Source of the DNA: an uncultured Spirochaetales bacterium
GTDB lineage: Bacteria; Spirochaetota; Spirochaetia; Sphaerochaetales; Sphaerochaetaceae
Reading direction: 5' to 3'
DNA: 58,380 nt
NCBI GenBank assembly: GCA_949293335.1
Contig: CASFDA010000021.1
Coordinates: 1 to 58,380 of the forward strand
The position numbers and the translations under genes are program-made. The notes beneath the pieces were generated by a model. It was not told where the DNA came from. It saw nothing but the letters and a program-made list of their open reading frames with translations, and made no database searches. This document shows, piece after piece, positions 740 through 57,330 of this stretch. Each line of letters opens with the position of its first letter. Position 1 is the first letter of the stretch.

Positions 740-1191
740 ATGGATAGTGAGAGTCTAGCTCATACGGAATGGAACTGCAAATACCATACAGGCGGCAGGT
801 AATCTACGGCCGGCTTAGGACGGAGATAGGCAAGATACTGAGGGAGCTGTGCAGGAGGAAGGAAATCGAGATCCTGGAAGCAGAGGCGTGTCCCGACCAT
901 ATACATATGCTGCTGTCGATACCGCCGAAGTACAGCGTGGCGAGCGTGATGGGGTATCTGAAAGGGAAGAGCAGCCTGATGATATTCGACAGGTTTGCGA
1001 ATCTGAAGTACAAATACGGGAACAGGGAATTCTGGTGCCGCGGGTATTATGTCGATACGGTGGGACGGAATAAGGCTGCGATAGAGAAATACATCAGGAA
1101 CCAGCTGATGGAGGACAGGAATGAGGAGCAACTGGTGATGAAGGAGCTGTTCGACCCGTTTACGGGTGAGCCAGCGAAGAAGGACAGATGA
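740..1191 (+). pseudogene. tnpA: IS200-family Y1 transposase TnpA, frameshifted
   Basis: The start MDSESLAHTEWNCKYH (from ATG 740) is the usual IS200 TnpA N-terminus, but the frame ends after HTGGR at about 801. The rest continues in the next frame, from YRRQVIYGRL to 1191. The HUH histidines (CPDHIHMLL) and the catalytic tyrosine region (CRGYYVDTVGRN) are present in the second part. Between KYH and YRRQ the family normally has about seven residues (IVFAPKY-like), so a deletion of about 19 nt near 787 explains both the gap and the frameshift. The enzyme should be inactive unless an alternative start makes a truncated form. Confidence 0.85.
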
Positions 1192-22661: not shown

Positions 22662-23864
22662 TCATGTCAAATCATTGAGCACTGAACTACGGACCTCATC
22701 AAGTGTCATGGAGTTATCATCTGCAATTTTCCCAATATCCTCATACTCTGCTTTCATGCGTTTCACTCCATAGCCCTCAGAGACTTTGATGCGCACCTTC
22801 CCATACTTTGTTTCCACTTCCTTGTTAATGCGGTCGAGCACAAACCTTTCATAAACGGTCTTGCGGATGCCTATTGTCGTCGTATACCGGAAGATCAGGT
22901 CTGTCATGTTTTTCATTTTCTGTTCTGAACATATTACGCATAGCATTATTCCTGGACGGGATTTCTTCATCCCGATCGGAATTGTAAAGACATCTTTTGC
23001 CCCTGCGGCAAAGAGTCTTTCAATTGCAAATCCTATATCCTCTCCAGTCATATCATCGACATTGCAGGCAAGTCCTATGACTTTGTCACTGGAATCTTCT
23101 TTATTTCCCAGCATGGCCCTGACACAGTTTGCTGCTTTGAAATCCTTCTTTCCCATCCCATAACCTATGCCGGTAACGCTCATCAATGGCATTTGGCCGA
23201 ATGATGTGGCAAAGTGTTTGAGGAGAGCGGCTCCTGTGGGAGTACATAATTCCCCCTCGATGTCTCCAGAATATATCGGAAGCCCCGATAGTATGTATGC
23301 TGTCGCAGGGGCAGGAACTGGAAGTATTCCGTGTGCACAGTGCACATGTCCGTATCCGACGTGTATTGGAGATACGACAACTTCATCCGGGTGGATCATA
23401 TCCATGAGCATGGAGACAGCAGTAATATCGGCAACTGCATCCATTGTACCAACTTCATGGAAGTGTATGTCTGTTATCGGCATACCGTGAACGTGGCTTT
23501 CTGCCTCTGCAATGATACTGAAAACGGACATTATATCTTTCCTGATGTTCTCTGGAAGATTCAGGTGGTGGCGAACTATGTGTTCTATATCGGATAGCGA
23601 GTGATGTTCGTGATGATGCTCGTGTCCGTCTCTATGATGGTGTTCATGCAGATCACCTTCTTCTGAGCCATTTATAAAGATAGAGACATGAGTGCCGGAG
23701 ATTCCGCATTTTTCTGCTTTTTCTACTACCATTTTCACGCCTGGAATACCAAGCGCATTGAAATCCTCTATGAATCTGCGTTTGTCATCGAGAAGTTCCA
23801 GCAAAGCTGATGTCAGCATATCGCCAGATGCGCCCATTCCGCAATCAATGTAAAGTGTTTTCAT
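22662..23864 (-). CDS. larC: Nickel-pincer cofactor nickel insertase LarC
   Basis: LarC (400 residues) inserts nickel into the pyridinium bis-thiocarboxylic mononucleotide, the last step of nickel-pincer (NPN) cofactor synthesis. The start MKTLYIDCGMGASGDML is a family hallmark, as is the His-rich metal-binding stretch near residues 74-90 (EHHHRDGHEHHHEHH). In some species larC is split by a programmed frameshift; here it is a single continuous frame. It is the last gene of a seven-gene minus-strand operon, 2 nt after larB. Confidence 0.95.
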   Translation of the reverse strand: MKTLYIDCGMGASGDMLTSALLELLDDKRRFIEDFNALGIPGVKMVVEKAEKCGISGTHVSIFINGSEEGDLHEHHHRDGHEHHHEHHSLSDIEHIVRHHLNLPENIRKDIMSVFSIIAEAESHVHGMPITDIHFHEVGTMDAVADITAVSMLMDMIHPDEVVVSPIHVGYGHVHCAHGILPVPAPATAYILSGLPIYSGDIEGELCTPTGAALLKHFATSFGQMPLMSVTGIGYGMGKKDFKAANCVRAMLGNKEDSSDKVIGLACNVDDMTGEDIGFAIERLFAAGAKDVFTIPIGMKKSRPGIMLCVICSEQKMKNMTDLIFRYTTTIGIRKTVYERFVLDRINKEVETKYGKVRIKVSEGYGVKRMKAEYEDIGKIADDNSMTLDEVRSSVLNDLT

Positions 23865-23866
23865 TT

Positions 23867-24622
23867 TTATTCCTCCCTTATGTGTACGTGGTTGATCATG
23901 CTGGCGAGATATCCAGCTCCGAATCCGTTATCTATGTTTACGACACAAACTCCGCTTGCGCATGAATTGAGCATTGAAAGGAGAGCTGCAAGGCCCCCGA
24001 AAGATGCTCCGTATCCGACACTCGTCGGAACTGCGATGACAGGACAGCTTGCAAGGCCTCCAAGGACACTTGCCAGAGCTCCTTCCATACCTGCTATGGC
24101 GATTATCGCATTGGCGCTCATTATTTCATCCAGATGGCTGAGCGTGCGATGGAGTCCAGCGACTCCGACATCGTAGAGTCTGATGACATTATTGCCAAGG
24201 ACCTCAGCCGTCAGAGCAGCTTCCTCTGCTACAGGAATGTCACTGGTCCCGCCAGTTGCCACTACAACGGTTCCGCTTCCATCTGACTCAGGTATCGGTC
24301 CCACAATGCCGATTCTTGCGTCTTCATGATAATCCAGCGGGTGCTTGCGTCTTATTATTTCCGCTGCCTCTTTCGATAACCTTGTGATAAGGACAGTATC
24401 CTGTCCGTTATTTTTCATGACATCGAGAATACCAATGATCTGCATGGGTGTTTTTCCCTGTCCGTATATTACTTCAGCCGCGCCCTGCCTCAGCTGGCGA
24501 TGCAGGTCCACTTTTGCAAAGCCTATGTCCTCAAAAGGTTTCTCCCTGAGCTTGAGAAGAGCTTCATTTATACTCATCTTTCCTTCACGCACATTCTCGA
24601 GCAGTGTTCTCGTGTCAATCAT
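23867..24622 (-). CDS. larB: NPN cofactor synthase LarB (carboxylase/hydrolase)
   Basis: LarB (251 residues) carboxylates nicotinic acid adenine dinucleotide and cleaves the phosphoanhydride in the first step of NPN cofactor synthesis. The C-terminal half resembles PurE (VVATGGTSDIPVAEEAA, then SVGYGASFGGLAALLSML). The glycine-rich GYGASFGG loop is typical of LarB. ATG 24622 is chosen because GGAGG lies 8 nt upstream; it overlaps the end of larE by 8 bp, indicating translational coupling. Confidence 0.93.
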   Translation of the reverse strand: MIDTRTLLENVREGKMSINEALLKLREKPFEDIGFAKVDLHRQLRQGAAEVIYGQGKTPMQIIGILDVMKNNGQDTVLITRLSKEAAEIIRRKHPLDYHEDARIGIVGPIPESDGSGTVVVATGGTSDIPVAEEAALTAEVLGNNVIRLYDVGVAGLHRTLSHLDEIMSANAIIAIAGMEGALASVLGGLASCPVIAVPTSVGYGASFGGLAALLSMLNSCASGVCVVNIDNGFGAGYLASMINHVHIREE

Positions 24623-25373
24623 TTCTTGCCTCCAGATCCAGCAGGACCGCTTCATAGAGTCCACCTAACGCATCAACTACTTTTTTCCTGTTTTCCAGCA
24701 TCAGGCTGAACTGCTCGCTTTTGATTTGTATGCGAGCTTTTTTCTCTGATAACCTGATGCGAAAATCGCAAAACCCTAGTGAGTGCAGAAAATCCTCAGC
24801 CTGTTCTGTCACTTCAAGTTTCTTTTTTGTTATTTCCTCTCCTGCAGGAATTCGGGTTGCAAGGCATGCATAAGCAGGCTTGTCCCAAGTGAAGAGTCCA
24901 GCTTCCAGAGACTTTTTCCTGACATCTTCTTTGGAGATGCCGCACTCTCTCAGAGGAGAGCGTATAGCGTATTCATCCAGAGCTTTCATTCCCGGTCGCT
25001 CTGAAAAATCATCACTTGCATTTGTTCCGTCTGCCACCACATGATAGCCATCTTCGCGTGCGGCATTCCGTATGGCGTTCATGATCATAGCCTTGCAGTG
25101 ATAACATCTGTCTGGAGGATTTGAAGTTATGGAAGGGGAAAGGACATCCAGATCGATGATCCTTAACCGGGCATTGAGCTGTGATGCCAGCTTTACAGCG
25201 TCATTGAATTCAAACTGCGGCTGGAATGCTGTCCTGACAAAATATGCAGAGACATCAGATCCAGATCTGACTGCAAAGTACAATAGATAGGCAGAATCTG
25301 CACCTCCTGAGAAAGCGATTGCAACTTTCCTGTTTTCTGCGAAAAATCTTTCCAGTGTCACATTTACCTCCAT
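24615..25373 (-). CDS. larE: ATP-dependent sacrificial sulfur transferase LarE
   Basis: LarE (252 residues) is a PP-loop ATPase that adds sulfur to the NPN precursor. The PP-loop motif is AFSGGADSAYLLY. A cysteine pair CYHC (in PDRCYHCKAMI) and a later CLATRIPAG are visible. Three suitably spaced cysteines may allow a [4Fe-4S]-dependent, catalytic type of LarE instead of the sacrificial type; this is not decided by eye. The start overlaps the FmdE gene's stop (TGATG). The longer upstream frame lacks family similarity. Confidence 0.93.
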   Translation of the reverse strand: MEVNVTLERFFAENRKVAIAFSGGADSAYLLYFAVRSGSDVSAYFVRTAFQPQFEFNDAVKLASQLNARLRIIDLDVLSPSITSNPPDRCYHCKAMIMNAIRNAAREDGYHVVADGTNASDDFSERPGMKALDEYAIRSPLRECGISKEDVRKKSLEAGLFTWDKPAYACLATRIPAGEEITKKKLEVTEQAEDFLHSLGFCDFRIRLSEKKARIQIKSEQFSLMLENRKKVVDALGGLYEAVLLDLEARND

Positions 25374-25912
25374 CAGATATTGAATCTGTCGTACGCCACA
25401 TAACAATCGCCACAAAGCATCTTCCCGTCTTGTATGTGTACCCAGTTTGCACCTGTTTTCTCCCCGCATTTTTCACAGATATATGTGTCAAAGATACGCG
25501 CCTTCTCTGGAATTGGAATCGTTGCCTTCTTGGCAGTGAAAATCTCATTAAAATGACATTGTCCAATGTATTTTCCGACATTTATGGTTCCCGGATCTGG
25601 AATGTCACCGGTCCGGACAAGCCGCACAGATTTCCATGTATCCCTGTTGTAGAATGAGAATGCAGGTTTACCTGTCATATGGAACAGTAGATTGCCTCTC
25701 CCGACAGTACAGCCCAGTACTGTTTGAATGGCATCAACAGCGCAAGTATCATTTTCGCTGATGCATAAAATCCCTTCATCCTGAGATAACTCAAGATCTA
25801 ATAGCTCATATGCATAAAGAGATGCGAGAAAACCGGTAAATAAACCACCGCAGGCATGCCCATGAAAGCTTTGGCAACGCTGCCATAAAAATTCTATATC
25901 CAGTCTATCCAT
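25373..25912 (-). CDS. FmdE-like protein with C-terminal zinc ribbon
   Basis: A 179-residue protein of the FmdE/formylmethanofuran dehydrogenase subunit E family. The N-terminal region has the family's conserved SFHGHACGGLFTG (usually GHxCPG) and CAVDAIQTVLGCTVGRGN. The C-terminus is a zinc ribbon (CEKCG, then CGDC). No methanofuran pathway is expected here, so its role lies elsewhere; members often sit next to metal ABC transporters. It lies 0-1 nt from both neighbours (ATP-binding protein and larE), so it is firmly part of this operon. A metal chaperone or sensor role is inferred. Confidence 0.85.
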   Translation of the reverse strand: MDRLDIEFLWQRCQSFHGHACGGLFTGFLASLYAYELLDLELSQDEGILCISENDTCAVDAIQTVLGCTVGRGNLLFHMTGKPAFSFYNRDTWKSVRLVRTGDIPDPGTINVGKYIGQCHFNEIFTAKKATIPIPEKARIFDTYICEKCGEKTGANWVHIQDGKMLCGDCYVAYDRFNI

Positions 25913-40148: not shown

Positions 40149-40732
40149 GGGATTACGTCGCAATCGACTTTGAGACGACATCATTCGAGCGTTCTAGCGC
40201 ATGTTCCATTGGTCTCATGCGCTTTGACTCAGATGGCAATCCTCTCGACAGCTACTATTCCCTGATAAAGCCGAAAAGGCCTGTATATAATCCCGTATGC
40301 ATGAATGTGCATAATATTCCTGTTGATGATATCGAATCATCCCCGTCGTTCAGGGCGATCTGGCCAGAAGTTGCATCCTTCATCGGTGATAGTCCGCTTG
40401 TTGCCCACAATGCTGAATTTGATATCTCTGTCCTCCGATGCACGATGGCAGATTGGAATATCAGCGGTTTCGAGGATGACTACTACTGTACGCTCTCCCT
40501 CTCGAAGAAGATTTATCCTGAACTGAAAAGTCATAAGCTCACTTCAATGGCCTCTATATGGGGCTGGAAATATGATGCGCACAATGCACTTGCAGACGCC
40601 TACATCGCCGGACGTCTTTTCTATACTTTGTGCAATTGCTGGCTCAAGGATGAAAAAGAACTCTCCCGCTTCATGGGGAGAGTCTACAAGTCTTCAAAAA
40701 ATCCATTTCCTAGGCATCTCGATCTTCTCTAG
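40145..40732 (+). CDS. DEDDh 3'-5' exonuclease (DNA polymerase III epsilon-like)
   Basis: A 195-residue exonuclease. ExoI is VAIDFETTSFE, ExoII is LVAHNAEFDISVL and ExoIII is HNALADAYIAG, with the catalytic His. Small free-standing members proofread or trim DNA or RNA ends. It overlaps the barrel protein gene by 4 bp, an odd pairing that may be only a matter of transcription. It converges on hydF with a 4-bp overlap. Confidence 0.92.
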   Translation: MRDYVAIDFETTSFERSSACSIGLMRFDSDGNPLDSYYSLIKPKRPVYNPVCMNVHNIPVDDIESSPSFRAIWPEVASFIGDSPLVAHNAEFDISVLRCTMADWNISGFEDDYYCTLSLSKKIYPELKSHKLTSMASIWGWKYDAHNALADAYIAGRLFYTLCNCWLKDEKELSRFMGRVYKSSKNPFPRHLDLL

Positions 40733-41925
40733 CCATCAATCAGAGCTGCAATGTCAGGGAAGAGTTCGAGCGAGCGCTTCAGGATTCCATTGAGATATGC
40801 AAGCATAGTTCCATAGTTGGTGAATGGAATTCCCGATTCAAGTGTTCTCTTCATCCTGTTCTGCACTTCCTTTTCAAGGAGCATGCATCCTCCGCAGTGT
40901 ATGACAAGCTTTATATTCCCCATATCCTCAGGGTAACCGACGCCAGATGAGAACGAGTATTTGAAATTCTTTCCAGTCACCTTCTTTATGAGGTTTGGAA
41001 TCTTGTCACGGCCGATATCACCGCACTGCCGGTGATGTGTGCACCCTTCAGCCATCAGGATTTCATCTCCCTCCTTGAGGTCCATGATCTTCCTCGCGCC
41101 TTTAACAGCTGTCTGCAGAAAGCCTTTATACCGTGCCATCAGAATCGAAAAGGAAGTCAGGAGCACATCGTCAGGAACTACAGACGAGACATAGCTGAAT
41201 GCCTGGCTGTCTGTGATAACGATCGCGATGTTCTCTTTTCCTATTTTCCTGATTCCTTCTTCAAGTTCGCTTTCCTTCAGGACAATTGCAATCGAATCTG
41301 AGTCGAGCACATCCCTGATGACCTGCTGTTGCGGGAGTATCATCCTTCCTTTTGGAGCTGCATCATCAATCGGGGTAACCAGAATATATACCGACTTCTT
41401 CGGGAAAAGGTCAGAGACGATCTTCTTGTCGTTTCCCTCCTTTTCAAAGGTGCTGACGATTCTCTTCAATTCATCGACACCTTCTCCGGTCCTTGCGCTG
41501 ACCATTATCCCGTCATCATATTTTCCATTTGCCAGATCGCTCTTGTTGTAAGCAATGACGTACGGGATAGAGAGCTTCCTGAATTGTTCCAGGAGAGCTT
41601 CATCCTCTTTTCCTTTCCCTTTTTCCGAATCGACTACGAGGATCGCGCCATCTATCCTCTTCAGGATATCCTTGGCTCTCTTTATCCTCATCTCTCCGAG
41701 TTCTCCTTCGTCGTCCAGACCAGGAGTATCAATCAGTGTGACAGGACCGATCGGGAGTATTTCCATCGTTTTGAACACTGGATCTGTCGTAGTTCCCTTC
41801 ACAGGAGATACAATTGATATCTCCTGATTTGAGAATGCGTTCATCAGGGAAGATTTGCCTGCATTCCTCAGCCCGAAGAAACCGAGATTGAACCTTGCGG
41901 ATCTTGTACTTGTAGATAGTGACAT
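40729..41925 (-). CDS. hydF: [FeFe]-hydrogenase maturation GTPase HydF
   Basis: HydF (398 residues) is the GTPase scaffold on which the 2Fe subcluster is carried to apo-hydrogenase. P-loop GLRNAGKSS (18-26), G3 DTPGLDD, G4 NKSD. The C-terminal iron-sulfur site is formed by CTHHRQCG (about residue 309) and HCGGCM near 356. Last gene of the maturation operon, 2 nt after hydG. No structural hydrogenase gene is in the window. Confidence 0.95.
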   Translation of the reverse strand: MSLSTSTRSARFNLGFFGLRNAGKSSLMNAFSNQEISIVSPVKGTTTDPVFKTMEILPIGPVTLIDTPGLDDEGELGEMRIKRAKDILKRIDGAILVVDSEKGKGKEDEALLEQFRKLSIPYVIAYNKSDLANGKYDDGIMVSARTGEGVDELKRIVSTFEKEGNDKKIVSDLFPKKSVYILVTPIDDAAPKGRMILPQQQVIRDVLDSDSIAIVLKESELEEGIRKIGKENIAIVITDSQAFSYVSSVVPDDVLLTSFSILMARYKGFLQTAVKGARKIMDLKEGDEILMAEGCTHHRQCGDIGRDKIPNLIKKVTGKNFKYSFSSGVGYPEDMGNIKLVIHCGGCMLLEKEVQNRMKRTLESGIPFTNYGTMLAYLNGILKRSLELFPDIAALIDG

Positions 41926-41927
41926 CG

Positions 41928-43346
41928 CTAGAACCTGAAATCCCTTATTCCTTCTTCAATCTTCTCAAGATGATCACTGCAGACTTCCTTCACTTTCATA
42001 GACGGAATCGTCTCAAGTTCCTTCCTGATGAGTTCTTCTCCGACTTTTTTCGTATCTTCTGAAGCATAGTCCATCAGATACTCTTTCAGCGTCATGAGCG
42101 CGTTCGGATGGCAGCAGTTCTGGATCTGTCCGCTCTTGCAGAGGCTCATGAACCTGTCTCCTGTTCTTCCTTCCCTGTAACATGCTGTACAGAATGACGG
42201 AAGACACCCCATCTTCATCAGCCAGTTGACAACTTCATCAAGCGGCCTGTTGTCGCTAACGTCGAACTGTGCCGAATTCTCGTCCTCGCTTTCCTTCTCA
42301 ACGTATCCTCCGACACTTGTCCTCGATCCTCCGCTTATCTGACTGATCCCGAGATGGAGTGATCTTGCCCTCACATCCTTTCCTTCGCGGGTGCTGATGA
42401 TCATTCCTGTATAAGGTACTGCGATCCTTATTATTGCTATGATCTTCAGGAACGTCTCATCATCAATTCCATTGTCAAACGCAGTCGGATCAATGTCATC
42501 TGCCCTCTTGATCCTCGGGACACTGATGGTATGGGGCCCAACACCATGAACCGCTTCAAGATGCTCTGCGTGCATCAGAAGGCCGGCAAGTTCGTAACGA
42601 TAGAGCTCGAGACCAAAGAGAACCCCGAGACCCACATCATCGATTCCACCTTCCATGGCCCTGTCCATTGCTTCTGTGTGGTATGCGTAATTGTGTTTTG
42701 GTCCTGTCGGGTGGAGTTTCTCGTAACTTTCCTTGTGATATGTCTCTTGAAAAAGGATATATGTTCCGATTCCGGCTTCTTTCAGCTTCCTATAATTCTC
42801 AACAGTCGTTGCTGCGATATTGACATTCACTCTCCGGATTGCTCCGTTCTTGTGCTTGATCGAATAGATTGTCTTGATTGCGTCGAGAACATATTCAATA
42901 GGGTTGTTGACCGGATCTTCTCCTGTTTCGATTGCGAGGCGCTTGTGTCCCATGTCCTGCAGGGCGATGACTTCGTTCCTTATCTCGTCCATCGAAAGCT
43001 TTTTTCTCCTGATGTGTTTGTTCTTCGCATGGTACGGACAGTAGACACAGCCGTTCACACAGTAGTTAGAGAGATAGAGTGGGGCGAACAGCACGATCCT
43101 GTTTCCGTAGAAATCCTTCTTGATCTGTTCTGCGAGATGATATATCTCATCAAGTCTCGTTTTGTCTTCACACGCGAGGAGCAGCGAGGCCTCCCTGTGT
43201 GTAAGACCTTTTCTCTTCTTTGCCTTTTCGATTATCTCATCGATCAGAGCAAGGTTATCCTTTTCCTTGTCTGCCCAGGCGAGGGTATCGATGATCTCCT
43301 CATGGGAGATGAACTCCTCCGCCTTCATTGAATTGACATTATACAT
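41928..43346 (-). CDS. hydG: [FeFe]-hydrogenase maturation radical SAM enzyme HydG
   Basis: HydG (472 residues) cleaves tyrosine to make the CO and cyanide ligands of the H-cluster. The radical-SAM cluster motif is CVNGCVYC (CX3CX2C), and the second C-terminal cluster is bound by FCTACYREG with the later CKSGQIQNC stretch. ATG 43346 (MYNVNSM) is chosen for the AGGAGG just upstream; the longer frame is an overlap with hydE. It overlaps hydE by 8 bp. Confidence 0.95.
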   Translation of the reverse strand: MYNVNSMKAEEFISHEEIIDTLAWADKEKDNLALIDEIIEKAKKRKGLTHREASLLLACEDKTRLDEIYHLAEQIKKDFYGNRIVLFAPLYLSNYCVNGCVYCPYHAKNKHIRRKKLSMDEIRNEVIALQDMGHKRLAIETGEDPVNNPIEYVLDAIKTIYSIKHKNGAIRRVNVNIAATTVENYRKLKEAGIGTYILFQETYHKESYEKLHPTGPKHNYAYHTEAMDRAMEGGIDDVGLGVLFGLELYRYELAGLLMHAEHLEAVHGVGPHTISVPRIKRADDIDPTAFDNGIDDETFLKIIAIIRIAVPYTGMIISTREGKDVRARSLHLGISQISGGSRTSVGGYVEKESEDENSAQFDVSDNRPLDEVVNWLMKMGCLPSFCTACYREGRTGDRFMSLCKSGQIQNCCHPNALMTLKEYLMDYASEDTKKVGEELIRKELETIPSMKVKEVCSDHLEKIEEGIRDFRF

Positions 43347-44403
43347 ATTCCCTCCTGTAGTTTTCATTTTCCTCGTGGCTGTCCCCACGTTCTCTTGCAA
43401 TCTCATAACCAAGTGAAGTGAGGTGTGCCTCGAGCTTCTTTATCTCCTCTGCACTTTCGAGAGCCACATGTGGTTTTCCGTCGTAGAGGTTGTATTTTTC
43501 TCTCTCTGTCTGTGGTGTCATGTTTGGCATGATCACATTCGCACCCATCTCAAGCCCCATATCACGTCCTCTCGGATCGAGCGCTCCAAGGGCAGTTGTC
43601 GATGGAAGGAGAAGTTTGGGCCGCATAATCCTGAGCACTGAAATGATCAGGAGTGTTTTTTCAAGAGATCCATTCTTCTCGTTCTCGAATGGGGTGTTCT
43701 CTGCGTGTATGAAAGGACCTATTCCTACCATCTGCGGTGCAAAGCGCGAGATGAGGATGATATCATTTGCGATATTCTCATCGCTCTGGTATGGCGAGCC
43801 CACCATGAATCCCAGCCCCACCTGATAGCCGATTTTCCTCAGATTCTGGATGCACCTTATCCTCTCTTCTATCTTCTGTCCTTCCGGATGGAGCATCTGG
43901 AAGTGCCTTTTTGTGATGCTCTCTTCTCGCAGAAGATACCTTTCGGCCCCGCTGAGGAATAGCCGTCTGTAGCTTTCTTCGCTCCTTTCTCCCAGAGAGA
44001 GTGTGATTGCCATATCGCTGTGTTTTTCCTTGACACTCCGTATGATCCGTTCAAGTCTGTCATCAGAAAAATACTGATCCTCACCTCCCTGTAGGACGAG
44101 TGTCCTCATACCTAGTGAATATGAGAGTTCAGCTTGGGCGATTATCACGTCATCTTCGAGACGATAGCGCCGGACTGTTCTGTTGTCTCTCCTGATTCCG
44201 CAGTAGAGGCAATTGCATCTGCAATGATTTGATATCTCCACCAAGGCTCTGAGATATACCTTCCTCCCATATTCTTTGTCTCGGATTCTTCTTGCTTCTT
44301 CGGAAAGCAATGCAAGATCTTTCCCGTCAAAGGATGAAAGAAGCAGGGAAAGCTCTTTCTTGTCGAGCTTTCCATCCCGTATGAGCCTTTCACTCAGCCT
44401 CAT
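43339..44403 (-). CDS. hydE: [FeFe]-hydrogenase maturation radical SAM enzyme HydE
   Basis: HydE (354 residues) helps make the dithiomethylamine ligand of the H-cluster. The radical SAM motif is CRCNCLYCG (CX3CX2C), followed by LQGGEDQYF and the later GLGFMVGSPYQ; the TTALGALDPRGRD stretch is typical of HydE. It overlaps the TM1266-like gene by 4 bp and hydG by 8 bp, so the four genes form one tight operon. Confidence 0.95.
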   Translation of the reverse strand: MRLSERLIRDGKLDKKELSLLLSSFDGKDLALLSEEARRIRDKEYGRKVYLRALVEISNHCRCNCLYCGIRRDNRTVRRYRLEDDVIIAQAELSYSLGMRTLVLQGGEDQYFSDDRLERIIRSVKEKHSDMAITLSLGERSEESYRRLFLSGAERYLLREESITKRHFQMLHPEGQKIEERIRCIQNLRKIGYQVGLGFMVGSPYQSDENIANDIILISRFAPQMVGIGPFIHAENTPFENEKNGSLEKTLLIISVLRIMRPKLLLPSTTALGALDPRGRDMGLEMGANVIMPNMTPQTEREKYNLYDGKPHVALESAEEIKKLEAHLTSLGYEIARERGDSHEENENYRREYV

Positions 44404-44654
44404 TTCGAAATTCCGGAGTATGCTGTCTTTGAGGAAACGCCACTAAGTTTTCCGATTTTTCCTGAGAGCGCAGATATTGCATCCTGTGGTGCGTCGACTG
44501 CGATACTTATAATGTTCAGATTCTTCTCGCGGTATGGGATTCCCATCCTTCCGATGATGTATTTCCTGTATTCATGCAGGATCTCGTTAAGATCGCTTAC
44601 GCTTTTCTCTTCTTCGACAATAATGCCGATAACCGCAATTCGTTTCTCTTCCAT
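44400..44654 (-). CDS. TM1266-like small protein of the hydrogenase operon
   Basis: An 84-residue protein of the TM1266/iron-only hydrogenase system regulator family, an ACT-like fold with RIAVIGIIVEE, LHEYRKYIIGRMGIPY and IISIAVDAP. The family sits almost always with hydEFG and is believed to be a regulator or accessory protein; the ligand is unknown. It is the first gene of the operon, with GAGGTG before ATG 44654. Confidence 0.85.
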   Translation of the reverse strand: MEEKRIAVIGIIVEEEKSVSDLNEILHEYRKYIIGRMGIPYREKNLNIISIAVDAPQDAISALSGKIGKLSGVSSKTAYSGISK

Positions 44655-44958
44655 GCATCACCTCAGCGTTCTCCCTGATATGCGTGGAAGATTCTGCTCA
44701 CCTTATGTGTCAAAGCCTGTTTTCCACGTCAGGAGATGCTGGAGAAAATATACCATCACTCAGGAACAAAGAAAAGAGGCACATCCTCTTTTTGAACAGG
44801 AAATTGACTTTGCTTGATTAGAAAAGCAAATATGATTAAATGACTGAAGAAATTAAGTGATTTAAGTTTGAACACTGAGATTAATTACTTTAATGTAAAC
44901 TAATTAAATATTTTGATTTTAGTAAAATCAGAGGTGCTTATTATATATTCGCATCTTC
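44655..44958. other. Intergenic region between selD and hydrogenase maturation operons
   Basis: 304 nt with one clear terminator (44772-44792) and an AT-rich part with the small palindrome GATTTTAGTAAAATC near 44915. The hyd operon promoter on the minus strand should lie between 44655 and 44770; none stands out. Confidence 0.45.
44772..44792 (-). terminator. Terminator of the selenium operon
   Basis: AAAAGAGG-CACAT-CCTCTTTT, a perfect 8-bp stem. On the minus strand the 3' arm ends in CTCTTTTCTTT. It lies about 170 nt after selD, between it and the hyd operon. Confidence 0.65.
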
Positions 44959-45993
44959 TCAATCGACATATATCAGCTTATCCCTTTTTCCTTTTACCTC
45001 TCCGATTATCCACGCTTTATCATTCATGCGTTTTATAAACAATTCTGCATCTTTTTCTGCAAGTGAGATCAATAGTCCCCCTGATGTTTCCGGAGAGTAG
45101 AGGATATCCTTTTCCGCAGTACTGATGCTATTCTTGATTTCTACTCCAGTCTTTATGTAATCCTCGTTCGTGTATCTGCCTTCTGGAATATAGCCGTCCT
45201 CTGCAAGAGATTTTGTTCCGCCATGCAGGGGAATGAGGGAGATGTGAATATCTGCGCTCGAGCCTGATGCCTTCATCATCTCCGAAAGATGTCCGAGAAG
45301 GGAAAAACCTGTGACGTCTGTCACTGCATGGACATCCAGATCCTCCAGATTCTCCATTGCGCTTTTGTTGAGCATCCTCATCGAGGAAATTGCATTCTCG
45401 ATATTCTCTTTTTTCCCATCTCCCACTTTGTGCGCTGTCATGATTATACCGACGCCAAGAGGTTTTGTGATTACAAGGACATCCCCATCTTTTGCTGTTC
45501 CATTGGTCCAGATCCTGTCTTTCCTGCATCGTCCTGTGACTGCCAAGCCGAACTTTGGTTCCCTGTCAGATATGGTGTGTCCTCCAGCTATTTCGATCCC
45601 CGCTTCCTTCGCTTTGAAAATCGCTCCTTTCATTATCTCTTCCATGACACTCAGCTCGAGGCATGAAGGAAAGCACATCAGGGACATGGCGATTATTGGC
45701 TTGCCTCCCATTGCATAGATGTCTGAAATAGCGTTTGCCGCGGCAATCTCTCCGAAAATGTACGGGTCATCGACCATAGGGGGGAAGAAATCTATCGTTT
45801 CCAGAAGTACTGTTCCGTCGCCAAGGTCGAAGACGAGTGCATCATCGTTATTTTCAAATCCGCCGATTATCCTCTTGTCGCTTTTCCCCGGAAGCCTCTC
45901 AAGCACTTTCCTCAAATCTCCTGGAGGAAGTTTTGCATTGCATCCGGAGCTTTTTACAAGACTTGTCAGCCTGACTGATATATCTTTTTCCAT
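44959..45993 (-). CDS. selD: Selenide, water dikinase (selenophosphate synthetase)
   Basis: SelD (344 residues) makes selenophosphate from selenide and ATP. The active-site cysteine and lysine are Cys18 and Lys21 in SSGCNAKLPP; here it is a Cys form, with Asn-Ala in place of the usual Gly-Cys between. The rest (MGGKPIIAMSLMCFP, HTISDREPKFGLAVTG, VTGFSLLGHL and SPETSGGLL) is typical. AAGGAGG lies 7 nt before ATG 45993, and the start overlaps the DUF3343 gene by 28 bp. No selA or selB is in the window, so the product is either for selenocysteine made elsewhere or a selenium cofactor. Confidence 0.95.
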   Translation of the reverse strand: MEKDISVRLTSLVKSSGCNAKLPPGDLRKVLERLPGKSDKRIIGGFENNDDALVFDLGDGTVLLETIDFFPPMVDDPYIFGEIAAANAISDIYAMGGKPIIAMSLMCFPSCLELSVMEEIMKGAIFKAKEAGIEIAGGHTISDREPKFGLAVTGRCRKDRIWTNGTAKDGDVLVITKPLGVGIIMTAHKVGDGKKENIENAISSMRMLNKSAMENLEDLDVHAVTDVTGFSLLGHLSEMMKASGSSADIHISLIPLHGGTKSLAEDGYIPEGRYTNEDYIKTGVEIKNSISTAEKDILYSPETSGGLLISLAEKDAELFIKRMNDKAWIIGEVKGKRDKLIYVD

Positions 45994-46199
45994 TTTCCGT
46001 CCTCCTTTTGATAGATGGCCTCAACGCTCTCGTCCACCTTTGCCATATCTATCTCGCCAAAGATAAACAAAGCACTATTGCATGAAGATGAGAGAGATCG
46101 CGGGGTGGGGCGTAGTTCGCCATCCTTGTATCTCCTTTTGAAGGAGAGTGCCTGATAGTGACTGAAGAAGGTAATTATTTTCTCACTTCCATTTTCCAA
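45966..46199 (-). CDS. DUF3343 family protein, putative selenium carrier partner
   Basis: A 77-residue protein of the DUF3343 family, which occurs next to SelD, YedF/TusA and YedE in selenium-cofactor bacteria. The start is IITFFSHYQALSFKRRYKDG and the middle cysteine is in LSSSCNSALFIFG. A sulfur or selenium relay role is presumed from context. It overlaps the TusA-like gene by 25 bp and selD by 28 bp; the overlaps are long, and the true start could be internal, but no other ATG gives the family's N-terminus. Confidence 0.8.
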   Translation of the reverse strand: MENGSEKIITFFSHYQALSFKRRYKDGELRPTPRSLSSSCNSALFIFGEIDMAKVDESVEAIYQKEDGKWKKIYQSG

Positions 46200-46381
46200 T
46201 GATCAGCTTCCTCAATTTTCACTACTTTGTAGTTGTTCTTATTGCACAGCCTTGTAATGTTTTCAATCGCAGCCCTGTCATCAACGAGCACATCGATTCC
46301 ATCCTGATGGGTTTGCAGTGCTTTTTTTGTAAGAAAAACCGGTTCTGGGCAATTTAGGCCCCTTGCATCAAGTGTAAACAT
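46175..46381 (-). CDS. TusA/YedF-like sulfurtransferase
   Basis: A 68-residue SirA/TusA/YedF-family protein. The active-site motif is GLNCPEPV. In the selenium setting YedF-like proteins pass selenium or sulfur as a persulfide or perselenide. AAGGAGG precedes ATG 46381. It is placed between yedE and the DUF3343 gene, as in other selenium clusters. Confidence 0.9.
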   Translation of the reverse strand: MFTLDARGLNCPEPVFLTKKALQTHQDGIDVLVDDRAAIENITRLCNKNNYKVVKIEEADHWKMEVRK

Positions 46382-46384
46382 GAA

Positions 46385-47452
46385 TCAATTCCTCCTTCCT
46401 TTCAAAGTAAGGGTCAGACCGATGAGAAAAAGAATCAGAAGAGCAGCAACAGCAGCGATCTTACCGTTTGCGGAAGGTCCGGTTCCTGCACTGGAGGCCA
46501 GACCGAAGTTATGTGCAAAGGCCGCCCCCAGAAGCATTCCCAGACAGCTCAATGCACTGTCCGATGAGCCTTCGCCAGCAAGAACCAGCTGTCTCAAAGG
46601 GCAACCGCCAAGCATAACAGACCCGAGTCCTACCGACATCATACCGAGAAATGACCAGAAATGGGCCTGATGTGCAACAGGTTGATTTTCAAAACCGAGG
46701 TTGAATGAACCTGCAAGCAGGTTTCCGATCAGCGCAAAAATGAATATTGCCACAAATCCTGTTATCAGGGTGTAGTCTTTTATTAGGAAGATATCTCTGA
46801 TTCCTCCAGCCATGCATAGTCTTGTCCGTTCTGCGAAGATACCTACAATCAGTCCTGCAAGAAGAGCCATGAAAACTGGTGCGTGCATAGAGCCAGGACC
46901 TGATTCAGAGAAAAGGAATATTGAAGGAACTGAGACGAAAAGAACGAGAAGCAGAATATTTGAAAGCGTGAAGAAAGACCCATCTAGCGCTGGGCTCCTG
47001 TAGTTCCTTCCGAGTGAAAATCCGTTTTTCAGGAAAACGACGCCAACCGCTATTCCAGCGATGAAGCCCAAGAGAGCAAATATTGCATTCAGGTCGCCTC
47101 CAGCTAGGCGAAGGACCATCCTGAGCGGGCAGCCCAGAAAAATTAGGGCTCCTACCATAACCAGAAAACCGATTATAAATCTGAGGAATGGGGAAGAACC
47201 TGCACGGGGATGAAAATCTCCCTTGATCACACTTATCGCAAAGGAACCGAGCACAATGCCGATGATCTCAGGCCTTACATACTGGACGATAGCTGCCTGA
47301 TGTAAGTGAAGAGCTCCGCTGATGTCCCTGATGAAGCAAGCGATGCAGAATCCCATATTCCCGGGATTGCCCATGACTACCAGTATGACACTGATACATC
47401 CGATAAGTGCGCCAGCAATTGCCAGTTTCCCTTTTTCCTTGATATCTTCCAT
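46385..47452 (-). CDS. yedE: YedE-family selenium (or sulfur) membrane transporter
   Basis: A 355-residue YeeE/YedE-family membrane protein with about ten helices. The paired motifs IGFLVMVGALIFLGCPLRM and GLGSVMLGGCPLRQLVLAGEG contain the conserved cysteines that handle thiosulfate or selenium species. In selenium clusters it is believed to import a selenium compound. It is the first gene of the yedE-tusA-DUF3343-selD operon, divergent from the cysteine desulfurase. ATG 47452 is preceded by no strong ribosome binding site. Confidence 0.9.
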   Translation of the reverse strand: MEDIKEKGKLAIAGALIGCISVILVVMGNPGNMGFCIACFIRDISGALHLHQAAIVQYVRPEIIGIVLGSFAISVIKGDFHPRAGSSPFLRFIIGFLVMVGALIFLGCPLRMVLRLAGGDLNAIFALLGFIAGIAVGVVFLKNGFSLGRNYRSPALDGSFFTLSNILLLVLFVSVPSIFLFSESGPGSMHAPVFMALLAGLIVGIFAERTRLCMAGGIRDIFLIKDYTLITGFVAIFIFALIGNLLAGSFNLGFENQPVAHQAHFWSFLGMMSVGLGSVMLGGCPLRQLVLAGEGSSDSALSCLGMLLGAAFAHNFGLASSAGTGPSANGKIAAVAALLILFLIGLTLTLKGRRN

Positions 47453-47508
47453 GTGTAAAAAATACCATTCTGTATTAATTCATTCAATGGTGGAGTATCA
47501 TTATCAAT

Positions 47509-48657
47509 ATGAAAAGAATATATCTTGACAATGCAGCGACTTCATTCCCGAAGGCTCCAGGAGTTTCTGCAGAAATTGCCCATTTCATAGAAAACGATGA
47601 CATCAATCCATACCGGACGAACAGCAGGATGGAGGAGAGTTATTTCGGAAAAGTTGAAGATCTGCGCTTTCTCCTTTCTTCATTCTTCGGTGCCCGACAT
47701 CCTGAGTGTATTGGCTTTACGCTCAATGCAACACATGCGTTCAATTATATAATCAAGGGACTTTTCAAAAGAGGGGATCACCTGATTATCTCAAGTCAGG
47801 AACACAACGCTGTAATGCGTCCTTTGAACCAGATGGGACTGGAGTATTCAAAAATTGCATCGTCAGGTGACGGACTTCCTGATTATTCATCCCTTCCTTC
47901 TCTCCTTGAAAGGGATACCAAAGGAATAATCATAAATGTAGCGGGGAATGTGTCTGGAGCATTATGGCCTCTCGATATAGTTTCTGAGTTTGCGAACAGG
48001 CATGGCCTGTATCTCATCGTGGATTCATCGCAGGCATCTCCATATGTGGACATCAATATGGACAGGATGGGAATCAGTGCGATAGCTTTCACAGGGCACA
48101 AAGGTTTTCTTGGCCCCGAAGGGACGGGAGGTTTTGTACTTGAAAAAACTGTTGCTGAGAAAATTGAACCATTGATTGTAGGGGGGACAGGAAGCGAGAG
48201 CGACAAGGAAGAACAGCCGCATCTTCTTCCGGATAAGCTTTCTGCCGGAACTGAGAACACTATCGGGCTTGTCGGTCTGGCAAAAGCGGTGAAATATGTG
48301 ATTGACAATCGGAAAGAGTTGGTGGAGAAAGAGCTGAAGATGACAAGGCGTCTTGAGGAAGGGCTGATGAAAATGAAGGAAATAAAGATAGTAGGGCCTT
48401 CTGGGGACGCAAAGAAAATCCCTATAGTCTCGATAACTTCAGAGTACTTTGACTTGTCTTCCCTTTCTTCCTTCCTTCTTTCTGAAGGGGGCATTGAAAC
48501 GAGAGTAGGCCTCCATTGCGCTCCGTCTGCTCATATGGCATTGGGTACATTCCCGACCGGGACACTCCGTTTTTCTCCTGGCGCGTTTACGACAGAGGAT
48601 GAAATAGATTTCACGCTAGATCTTGTATCCAGTTATCTGATGCGCTCTTTTCATTGA
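47509..48657 (+). CDS. Cysteine desulfurase/selenocysteine lyase-like PLP enzyme
   Basis: A 382-residue class V aminotransferase. The PLP lysine is in FTGHKGFLGPEGTGG, and the catalytic cysteine is in RVGLHCAPSAH, as in SufS/CsdA-like enzymes. The N-terminal IYLDNAATSFPKAPGV is the standard start. In selenium-dependent gene clusters such enzymes release selenium or sulfur for SelD. It is divergent from yedE with 56 nt between, where ACCATT/AATGGT forms a weak operator-like repeat at 47465-47491. Confidence 0.88.
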   Translation: MKRIYLDNAATSFPKAPGVSAEIAHFIENDDINPYRTNSRMEESYFGKVEDLRFLLSSFFGARHPECIGFTLNATHAFNYIIKGLFKRGDHLIISSQEHNAVMRPLNQMGLEYSKIASSGDGLPDYSSLPSLLERDTKGIIINVAGNVSGALWPLDIVSEFANRHGLYLIVDSSQASPYVDINMDRMGISAIAFTGHKGFLGPEGTGGFVLEKTVAEKIEPLIVGGTGSESDKEEQPHLLPDKLSAGTENTIGLVGLAKAVKYVIDNRKELVEKELKMTRRLEEGLMKMKEIKIVGPSGDAKKIPIVSITSEYFDLSSLSSFLLSEGGIETRVGLHCAPSAHMALGTFPTGTLRFSPGAFTTEDEIDFTLDLVSSYLMRSFH

Positions 48658-56353: not shown

Positions 56354-56680
56354 ATGGAATTTCCTCGTCTCGAAACATTTTTGCGTGTTGCTGAATCAGG
56401 AAGCTTCAATAAGGCAGCAGAGAACGGCAACATCACATCTACAGCTGTCATCAAGCAGATGAATCTTCTGGAGGATGAGTAGGGGCCAGACTCTTTGACC
56501 GGAGTCACAGAGGCTTGAAACTCACAAGGGCAGGTGAGTCTTTCTGCAAAGACGTGAAATATCTTCTGAAGTATGCGCATGAAGCAGAACTGCGGGCTCG
56601 CAAGGCGATGTGGGAAGATGGCAATCTCATCAGGATCGGGGCTTCTCCTATGACTCCTTCCGCGGCATTTTCAGAACTTT
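56354..56680 (+). pseudogene. LysR-family regulator, N-terminal remnant
   Basis: From ATG 56354 the frame reads MEFPRLETFLRVAESGSFNKAA, the LysR DNA-binding domain, up to LEDE-stop at 56482. A missing base after GAG shifts the frame; the continuation (GARLFDRSHRGLKLTRAGESFC and IRIGASPMTPSAAF) runs to about 56680, where a truncated TnpB frame takes over. The effector-binding domain is lost. Two separate lesions make it a clear pseudogene. Confidence 0.8.
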
Positions 56681-57330
56681 GCCGAAGATACTGAAGCAGC
56701 ATGAGAAAAGGCTGAAACATCTCCAGCGGATGCTGGCAAGGAAGAAGAAGGGTTCGGAGAACTGGAAGAAGCTCAAACATGAGATAGCAGTGCTCCATGA
56801 GAAGATGACCGACACCAGGAAAGATGCGATAGACAAGATGACGAAGAGGATCATCTGCGACAGCCAAGCAGACGTGATAGTCATCGAGGATCTGAACGTA
56901 TCCGGGATGGTGAGGAACCATAAACTCTCGAAGCATATACAGGATGCGTCATTCTCTGAGATCAGGAGGCAGCTTGAGTACAAGAGTCTCTGGCATGGGA
57001 AGACGCTGATCATAGCAGACAGGTTCTTTGCTTCATCAAGGACATGTCATAACTGCGGCTGGCGCAATGGAGGGCTCACGCTTGGTGACAGACAGTGGGA
57101 ATGCCCCGTGTGCCATACTAAACATGATCGGGACAGGAATGCGGCCCTGAATCTGGAATCCTTTGGCCTGAAGGCCCTAGCCGGGGACGCTGGCGAAGTC
57201 AGGCCTCCGGAGATGCTCTCTGTGGACGACCGTACGGCAACGCACCTAAGAAGCATGGCATCAGTGAACGAGGAAAAAGAACATGGATACTCCATGGAAG
57301 CCCCTAAGCTTGCTTAGGTGGTATTGTCAC
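56680..57330 (+). mobile_element. tnpB: TnpB element, 5'-truncated second copy
   Basis: This TnpB lacks its N-terminal half. It starts at about PKILKQHEKRLKHLQ inside the former LysR gene and ends at TAG 57315-57317. RuvC-II glutamate (VIVIEDLNVSGM), the zinc finger (CHNCGW and CPVCHTKHDRD) and the C-terminal RuvC aspartate are present, but RuvC-I is absent, so it cannot cut DNA. The right end (57318-57330) matches that of the copy at the window start. The last 270 coding bases differ from that copy at only a handful of positions, so they are recent relatives. Confidence 0.85.

Follow-up and report, generated by a model that had tools for sequence, protein, structure and literature searches.

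The window analysed here, a stretch of 58,380 nucleotides from an uncultured Spirochaetales bacterium of the family Sphaerochaetaceae (assembly GCA_949293335.1, contig CASFDA010000021.1), carries at positions 44959-48657 a module of five genes that includes selD, the selenophosphate synthetase gene; this orphan selD module of an uncultured gut spirochaete most likely represents the selenium-cofactor trait rather than a new pathway. Judged by gene content, the lack of other selenium routes and conserved linkage, the five genes would form the selenium-supply part of the known trait of selenium-dependent molybdenum hydroxylases (SDMH), a reading to which we assign a probability of about 90%. The initial annotation, made from the sequence alone, had named yedE, a TusA-like gene, a DUF3343 gene, selD and a divergent desulfurase, and had suggested that they may serve a selenium cofactor instead of selenocysteine; profile scores identify all five as real genes, and gene content across the genome supports the suggested role.

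Genes and conserved residues of the module

Four of the genes lie on the minus strand in the order yedE (46385..47452; TIGR04112, 482 bits, cut-off 200), tusA-like (46175..46381; PF01206, 73 bits, cut-off 28.6), DUF3343 or Se_S_carrier (45966..46199; Pfam PF11823, 31.5 bits, cut-off 25) and selD (44959..45993; TIGR00476, 364 bits, cut-off 125), with spacings of +3, -25 and -28 bases; the DUF3343 gene has a TTG start that overlaps tusA. Such overlapping or nearly abutting genes fit the expectation for one operon. The fifth gene, csd, encodes a class-V cysteine desulfurase or selenocysteine lyase-like protein (47509..48657, plus strand; PF00266) and starts 56 bases from yedE in the opposite direction. 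Its top NCBIfam match is TIGR01977, the EF2568 type (351.5 bits over the full length, under the cut-off of 377); TIGR01977 is thus its nearest family, and with a score just below cut-off csd is not filed as a member. The yedE product is a predicted transporter of selenium, or of a sulfur compound, of the YedE/YeeE family. The tusA-like product, a stand-alone small sulfurtransferase or carrier, scored 50.7 bits against the YedF model TIGR03527 (cut-off 110) and matched the first 64 of its 194 positions; by this alignment it is the counterpart of the first YedF domain, lacks the two-domain architecture and may act as that N-terminal domain does.

Several residues of the five proteins are conserved among relatives. 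The active site of SelD reads Cys18-Asn-Ala-Lys21 and aligns with Cys-Gly-Cys-Lys of 3u0o and Cys-Ala-Ala-Lys of 2yye, two SelD chains with solved structures; this agrees with the initial description of a Cys-form SelD with Cys-Asn-Ala-Lys. In 20 aligned relatives Cys18 and Lys21 are invariant, position 19 holds Asn or Ala, and all but one have Ala at position 20. The Cys/Lys pair is essential in Escherichia coli SelD. Likewise kept in 20/20 relatives are five cysteines of YedE (36, 39, 108, 213 and 284), Cys11 of the TusA-like protein, Cys40 of the DUF3343 protein, and, in the csd product, Cys337 and the lysine 198 that binds pyridoxal phosphate.

Selenium routes in the genome

The draft genome that contains the window (G000; 35 contigs totaling 1.92 Mb, completeness 99.09%) was searched for the known selenium routes. 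SelA gave zero matches. SelB gave eight, none over cut-off; the best (186 bits vs. 242) is a 404-aa frame with only the first 260 positions covered, which we read as EF-Tu. For tRNA-Sec, 14 weak matches were obtained, none over the gathering score of 47 (best 42.6); at the eight of these that became loci, ARAGORN calls standard tRNAs for Ser, Gly, Leu and Cys. MnmH (MnmH/YbbB, TIGR03167) had no match in the genome. In 14 control genomes the SelA, SelB and MnmH searches exceeded their cut-offs in 1, 2 and 1 cases, respectively. The model TIGR04348, which we take to be SenB of the selenoneine pathway (SenABC), reached 36.5 bits against a cut-off of 300, and 0/14 controls exceeded it, so that this search had no positive control; SenA was not searched for. 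The single-copy selD is therefore an orphan, accompanied by neither SelA, SelB and tRNA-Sec for selenocysteine decoding nor MnmH for selenouridine. The lack of SelA and SelB initially noted for the window extends to the whole genome, and the genome-wide presence of selA, selB or selC, proposed at the time as evidence for the usual selenocysteine pathway, did not materialize, any more than that of mnmH.

The molybdenum hydroxylases absent from the window, as the initial annotation had remarked, are found on other contigs. Contig C35 encodes a TIGR03313 hydroxylase of 960 aa (1171 bits, cut-off 1101.9), together with genes resembling a flavin adenine dinucleotide subunit, an iron-sulfur subunit and XdhC, and a second hydroxylase large subunit of 713 aa; contig C8 encodes an 855-aa match to TIGR03311, "Se_dep_XDH," the selenium-dependent xanthine dehydrogenase (1181 bits, cut-off 830). 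YqeB (TIGR03309, 353 bits, cut-off 220) is located on contig C12, where also YgfK (1208 bits, cut-off 835), SsnA (505 bits, cut-off 455) and YgeY (483 bits, cut-off 321) occur, and YqeC (TIGR03172, 104.8 bits, cut-off 73) on contig C19. The YqeB protein (L047:6789-8267) is a 492-aa fusion with an XdhC-like first half and YqeB as the second half; in many family members the open frames at YqeB span 430-640 aa, in others about 270. The genome thus holds the published marker set of the trait, SelD plus YqeB plus YqeC, in addition to molybdenum hydroxylases of selenium-annotated families.

Conserved linkage and the split block

In close relatives, supply genes and hydroxylases are one conserved block. 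Twenty stretches around yedE, 17 from the same genus and three from two other genera, were searched with 24 protein queries taken from the window and its genome. Stretches of two same-genus genomes, G066 and G016, have every sampled 31-mer in common with contigs of "Candidatus Ornithospirochaeta stercoravium" and "Ca. O. avicola," respectively, which places the window in this genus of uncultured gut spirochaetes. The order csd, then yedE-tusA-DUF3343-selD, is kept in 20/20 loci, XdhC adjoins csd in 19/20, and a TIGR03313-type gene lies within the same stretch in 17/20 loci and in 16/17 of the same genus. In the single same-genus exception, G062, the hydroxylase block is found together with ygfK-ssnA-ygeY on a separate contig; beyond csd, G062 has the same neighbors as the window, namely ung and a phosphoesterase-like gene (both named by eye). 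The window is, then, one half of a block that has been split in the lineage of its own genome and G062, and it lacks a hydroxylase because of this split. An assembly artefact is an unlikely cause, since G062 shows the same csd neighbors and likewise has the hydroxylase block on another contig.

Across a family sample of 101 genomes, profile matches over cut-off were counted for YedE (79), SelD (87), YqeB (93), YqeC (93), SelB (7) and MnmH (0). SelD occurs without SelB in 81 genomes, and 77 of these 81 have YqeB; SelD therefore seems to serve mainly the selenium-cofactor trait in this family. Two loci of the sample deserve mention for selD itself. In G055 (C1:239255-250504), selD is found twice with equal scores about 8.8 kb apart, and yedE is matched once in full and once in part, a picture that suggests tandem duplication of the module; in G036 (C109:2-2811), selB adjoins a selD whose frame crosses one TGA, and this SelD looks like a selenoprotein itself.

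Proposed role and comparison with known systems

In the proposed pathway, YedE would import a selenium compound, and/or the desulfurase-like enzyme would free selenium from cysteine/selenocysteine. Two small proteins with one invariant cysteine each, the TusA-like and the DUF3343 protein, would carry the selenium, and from the gene order and these single invariant cysteines we infer a transfer from TusA to DUF3343 to SelD, which would produce selenophosphate. YqeB (as XdhC-like fusion), YqeC and XdhC would mature the molybdenum cofactor of the TIGR03311 xanthine dehydrogenase and the TIGR03313 hydroxylase, yielding in both a labile selenium atom at the molybdenum, and the hydroxylases would serve anaerobic purine breakdown alongside YgfK, SsnA and YgeY. 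The roles given here to SelD and YqeB follow published work: C. difficile grows less well on xanthine and on uric acid once selD or yqeB is lost, and loss of yqeC alone has no clear effect (PMC11448449). By 75Se labeling, a labile selenium protein was detected in Enterococcus faecalis (PMC2432076). Lin et al. (PMC5322559) predict that YedE is a transporter and DUF3343 a selenium chaperone; what YedE carries, and that the spirochaete enzymes contain selenium, is presumed here.

The closest counterpart is the orphan SelD/SDMH system EF2563-EF2582 of Enterococcus faecalis (Haft and Self, 2008, PMC2276186). Both systems have SelD, an EF2568-type class-V lyase, a TusA/SirA-like protein, YqeB, YqeC, XdhC, a molybdenum hydroxylase, YgeY, YgfK and SsnA, and neither has a selenocysteine or selenouridine route. 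In contrast to E. faecalis with its two-domain EF2566/YedF, the spirochaete has a stand-alone TusA; its cluster also includes DUF3343 and YedE, its supply genes and hydroxylases are on separate contigs, and its YqeB is joined with an XdhC-like part, an arrangement already reported for Haloarcula and termed frequent (PMC2276186). The YedE/YedF/DUF3343 neighborhoods described by Lin et al. (2015, PMC5322559) share with the module YedE (TIGR04112), DUF3343, SirA-like and Sec-lyase genes near selD; their Slackia example also has SelA and SelB, whereas the spirochaete lacks the selenocysteine pathway. Within the same phylum, Spirochaetes, Treponema phagedenis is listed by Peng et al. (2016, PMC5029168) with the same trait on the basis of SelD, YqeB and YqeC; the trait of T. 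phagedenis was reported there as acquired from Clostridia, whereas here SelD without SelB co-occurs with YqeB in 77/101 family genomes. The trait is already known, including a spirochaete case; the stand-alone TusA and the split block are variants of layout, not a new kind of system. Among the matches listed in literature searches on Sphaerochaeta and selenium and on Ornithospirochaeta, there was no study of the selenium-cofactor trait.

SelD-free sister genomes

Several points weigh against assigning the module to this trait. The module, the two hydroxylases, YqeB and YqeC are spread over five contigs of the genome; csd scores below the cut-off of its nearest family, and TusA amounts to less than a complete YedF; and six genomes of genus g3 (G037, G059, G063, G071, G083, G092) retain YqeB, YqeC and a TIGR03313 hydroxylase although they lack SelD. 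These six belong to ten family genomes with YqeB over cut-off and no SelD; of the other four, three have a completeness of 80% or less, and G057 has its yedE at the edge of a contig. The six g3 genomes are 88-98% complete, and G059 is one contig. Each of them (loci L187-L192, and L167-L172 without L169) has YqeC over cut-off, with one in-frame TGA in the G092 copy, and a full-length TIGR03313 protein over cut-off that is 63-66% identical to that of the spirochaete studied here. YedE was not found in the six by profile search, and the window SelD as query yielded only short fragments, with E-values of 0.03 or worse.

It follows that YqeB, YqeC and the hydroxylase alone do not prove selenium use. 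The six genomes contradict the statement of 2008 that TIGR03309 occurs only with selD (PMC2276186); according to Peng et al. (PMC5029168), YqeB or YqeC had been seen without the full trait and the pair was taken as its signature, and a later review demands SelD, YqeB and YqeC jointly (PMC9312934). This stricter combination is present in the genome of the window and absent from the six g3 genomes. Sixteen alignment columns separate the TIGR03313 enzymes of SelD-free (n = 6) from those of SelD-positive genomes (n = 18); no conclusion was drawn from them, as they may simply track phylogeny (g3 vs. other genera). One of the six, the two-contig genome G071 in which no SelD was found, encodes selA (496 bits) and selB (308 bits) together (L166:10443-13583).

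A tentative and rather doubtful extension is that yedE-tusA-DUF3343-selD is a plug-in cassette on a hydroxylase/YqeB/YqeC machine able to run without selenophosphate, with YqeB inserting chalcogens in general, be it sulfur or selenium, or with a selenium source other than SelD. Whether labile selenium derives from selenophosphate is a question posed in print (PMC11448449), for which the SelD-free sister genomes provide a natural comparison.

Alternative explanations

In one alternative, the hydroxylases carry sulfur, YqeB and YqeC are general cofactor-maturation proteins, and SelD has another job. The six g3 genomes, with YqeB, YqeC and TIGR03313 hydroxylases but neither SelD nor YedE, speak for this, as does the occurrence of YqeB or YqeC without the full trait noted by Peng et al. 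(PMC5029168); yet the genome of the window retains no alternative known selenium route that could account for SelD, and in 16/17 same-genus loci there is a physical link between the selD module and the hydroxylase cluster, which leaves this explanation quite unlikely. The ordinary selenocysteine pathway, with selA, selB and selC lost to assembly gaps, is conceivable for a 35-contig draft from a family in which 7/101 genomes have SelB over cut-off; given 99.09% completeness, the joint absence of SelA, SelB and tRNA-Sec, and SelB over cut-off in 0/18 same-genus genomes (own included), its probability is very small. Selenouridine in tRNA via MnmH would need SelD, which is present, and has next to no probability; with no MnmH match in the genome and 0/101 family genomes over cut-off, against controls that do match (one over cut-off), the search refutes this route for the known MnmH family.

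The position of the module suggests one more partner. Downstream of selD by 304 bases, and on the same strand, lie hydF, hydG, hydE and a TM1266 gene for [FeFe]-hydrogenase maturation (40729..44654, minus strand; profile scores over cut-offs), and the module might supply selenium in or around a hydrogenase. However, no HydE/F/G/TM1266 match was obtained in 20/20 loci from relatives, of which 17 extend 3.4 kb or more beyond selD, nor in 80/80 wider loci (42 longer than 20 kb), and the gap between selD and the TM1266 gene contains a terminator-like hairpin with a T-rich tail (44772..44792, minus strand), a weak feature identified by pattern match only. As no relative's locus has hydEFG beside selD, we rejected the hydrogenase link as highly improbable; the adjacency of the maturation genes looks like an accident of place, and the preferred assignment remains the selenium-cofactor trait. 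No hydrogenase structural gene was noticed beside hydF-hydG-hydE-TM1266, although no search aimed at one was made. Terminator-like patterns in the region numbered 13 against 8.2 (sd 3.1) in shuffles; promoter-like sites (12 observed, 11.9 expected) were uninformative.

Other features of the window

At 22662-25469 the window encodes larC, larB and larE for nickel-pincer cofactor synthesis, all over their cut-offs, adjoining a BtuC/Fec-type ABC transporter. Two frames near the ends of the window (769-1191 and 56610-57317) are transposase-like and presumably of the IS200/IS605 type (TnpA-like and TnpB-like), as recognized by eye from a motif.

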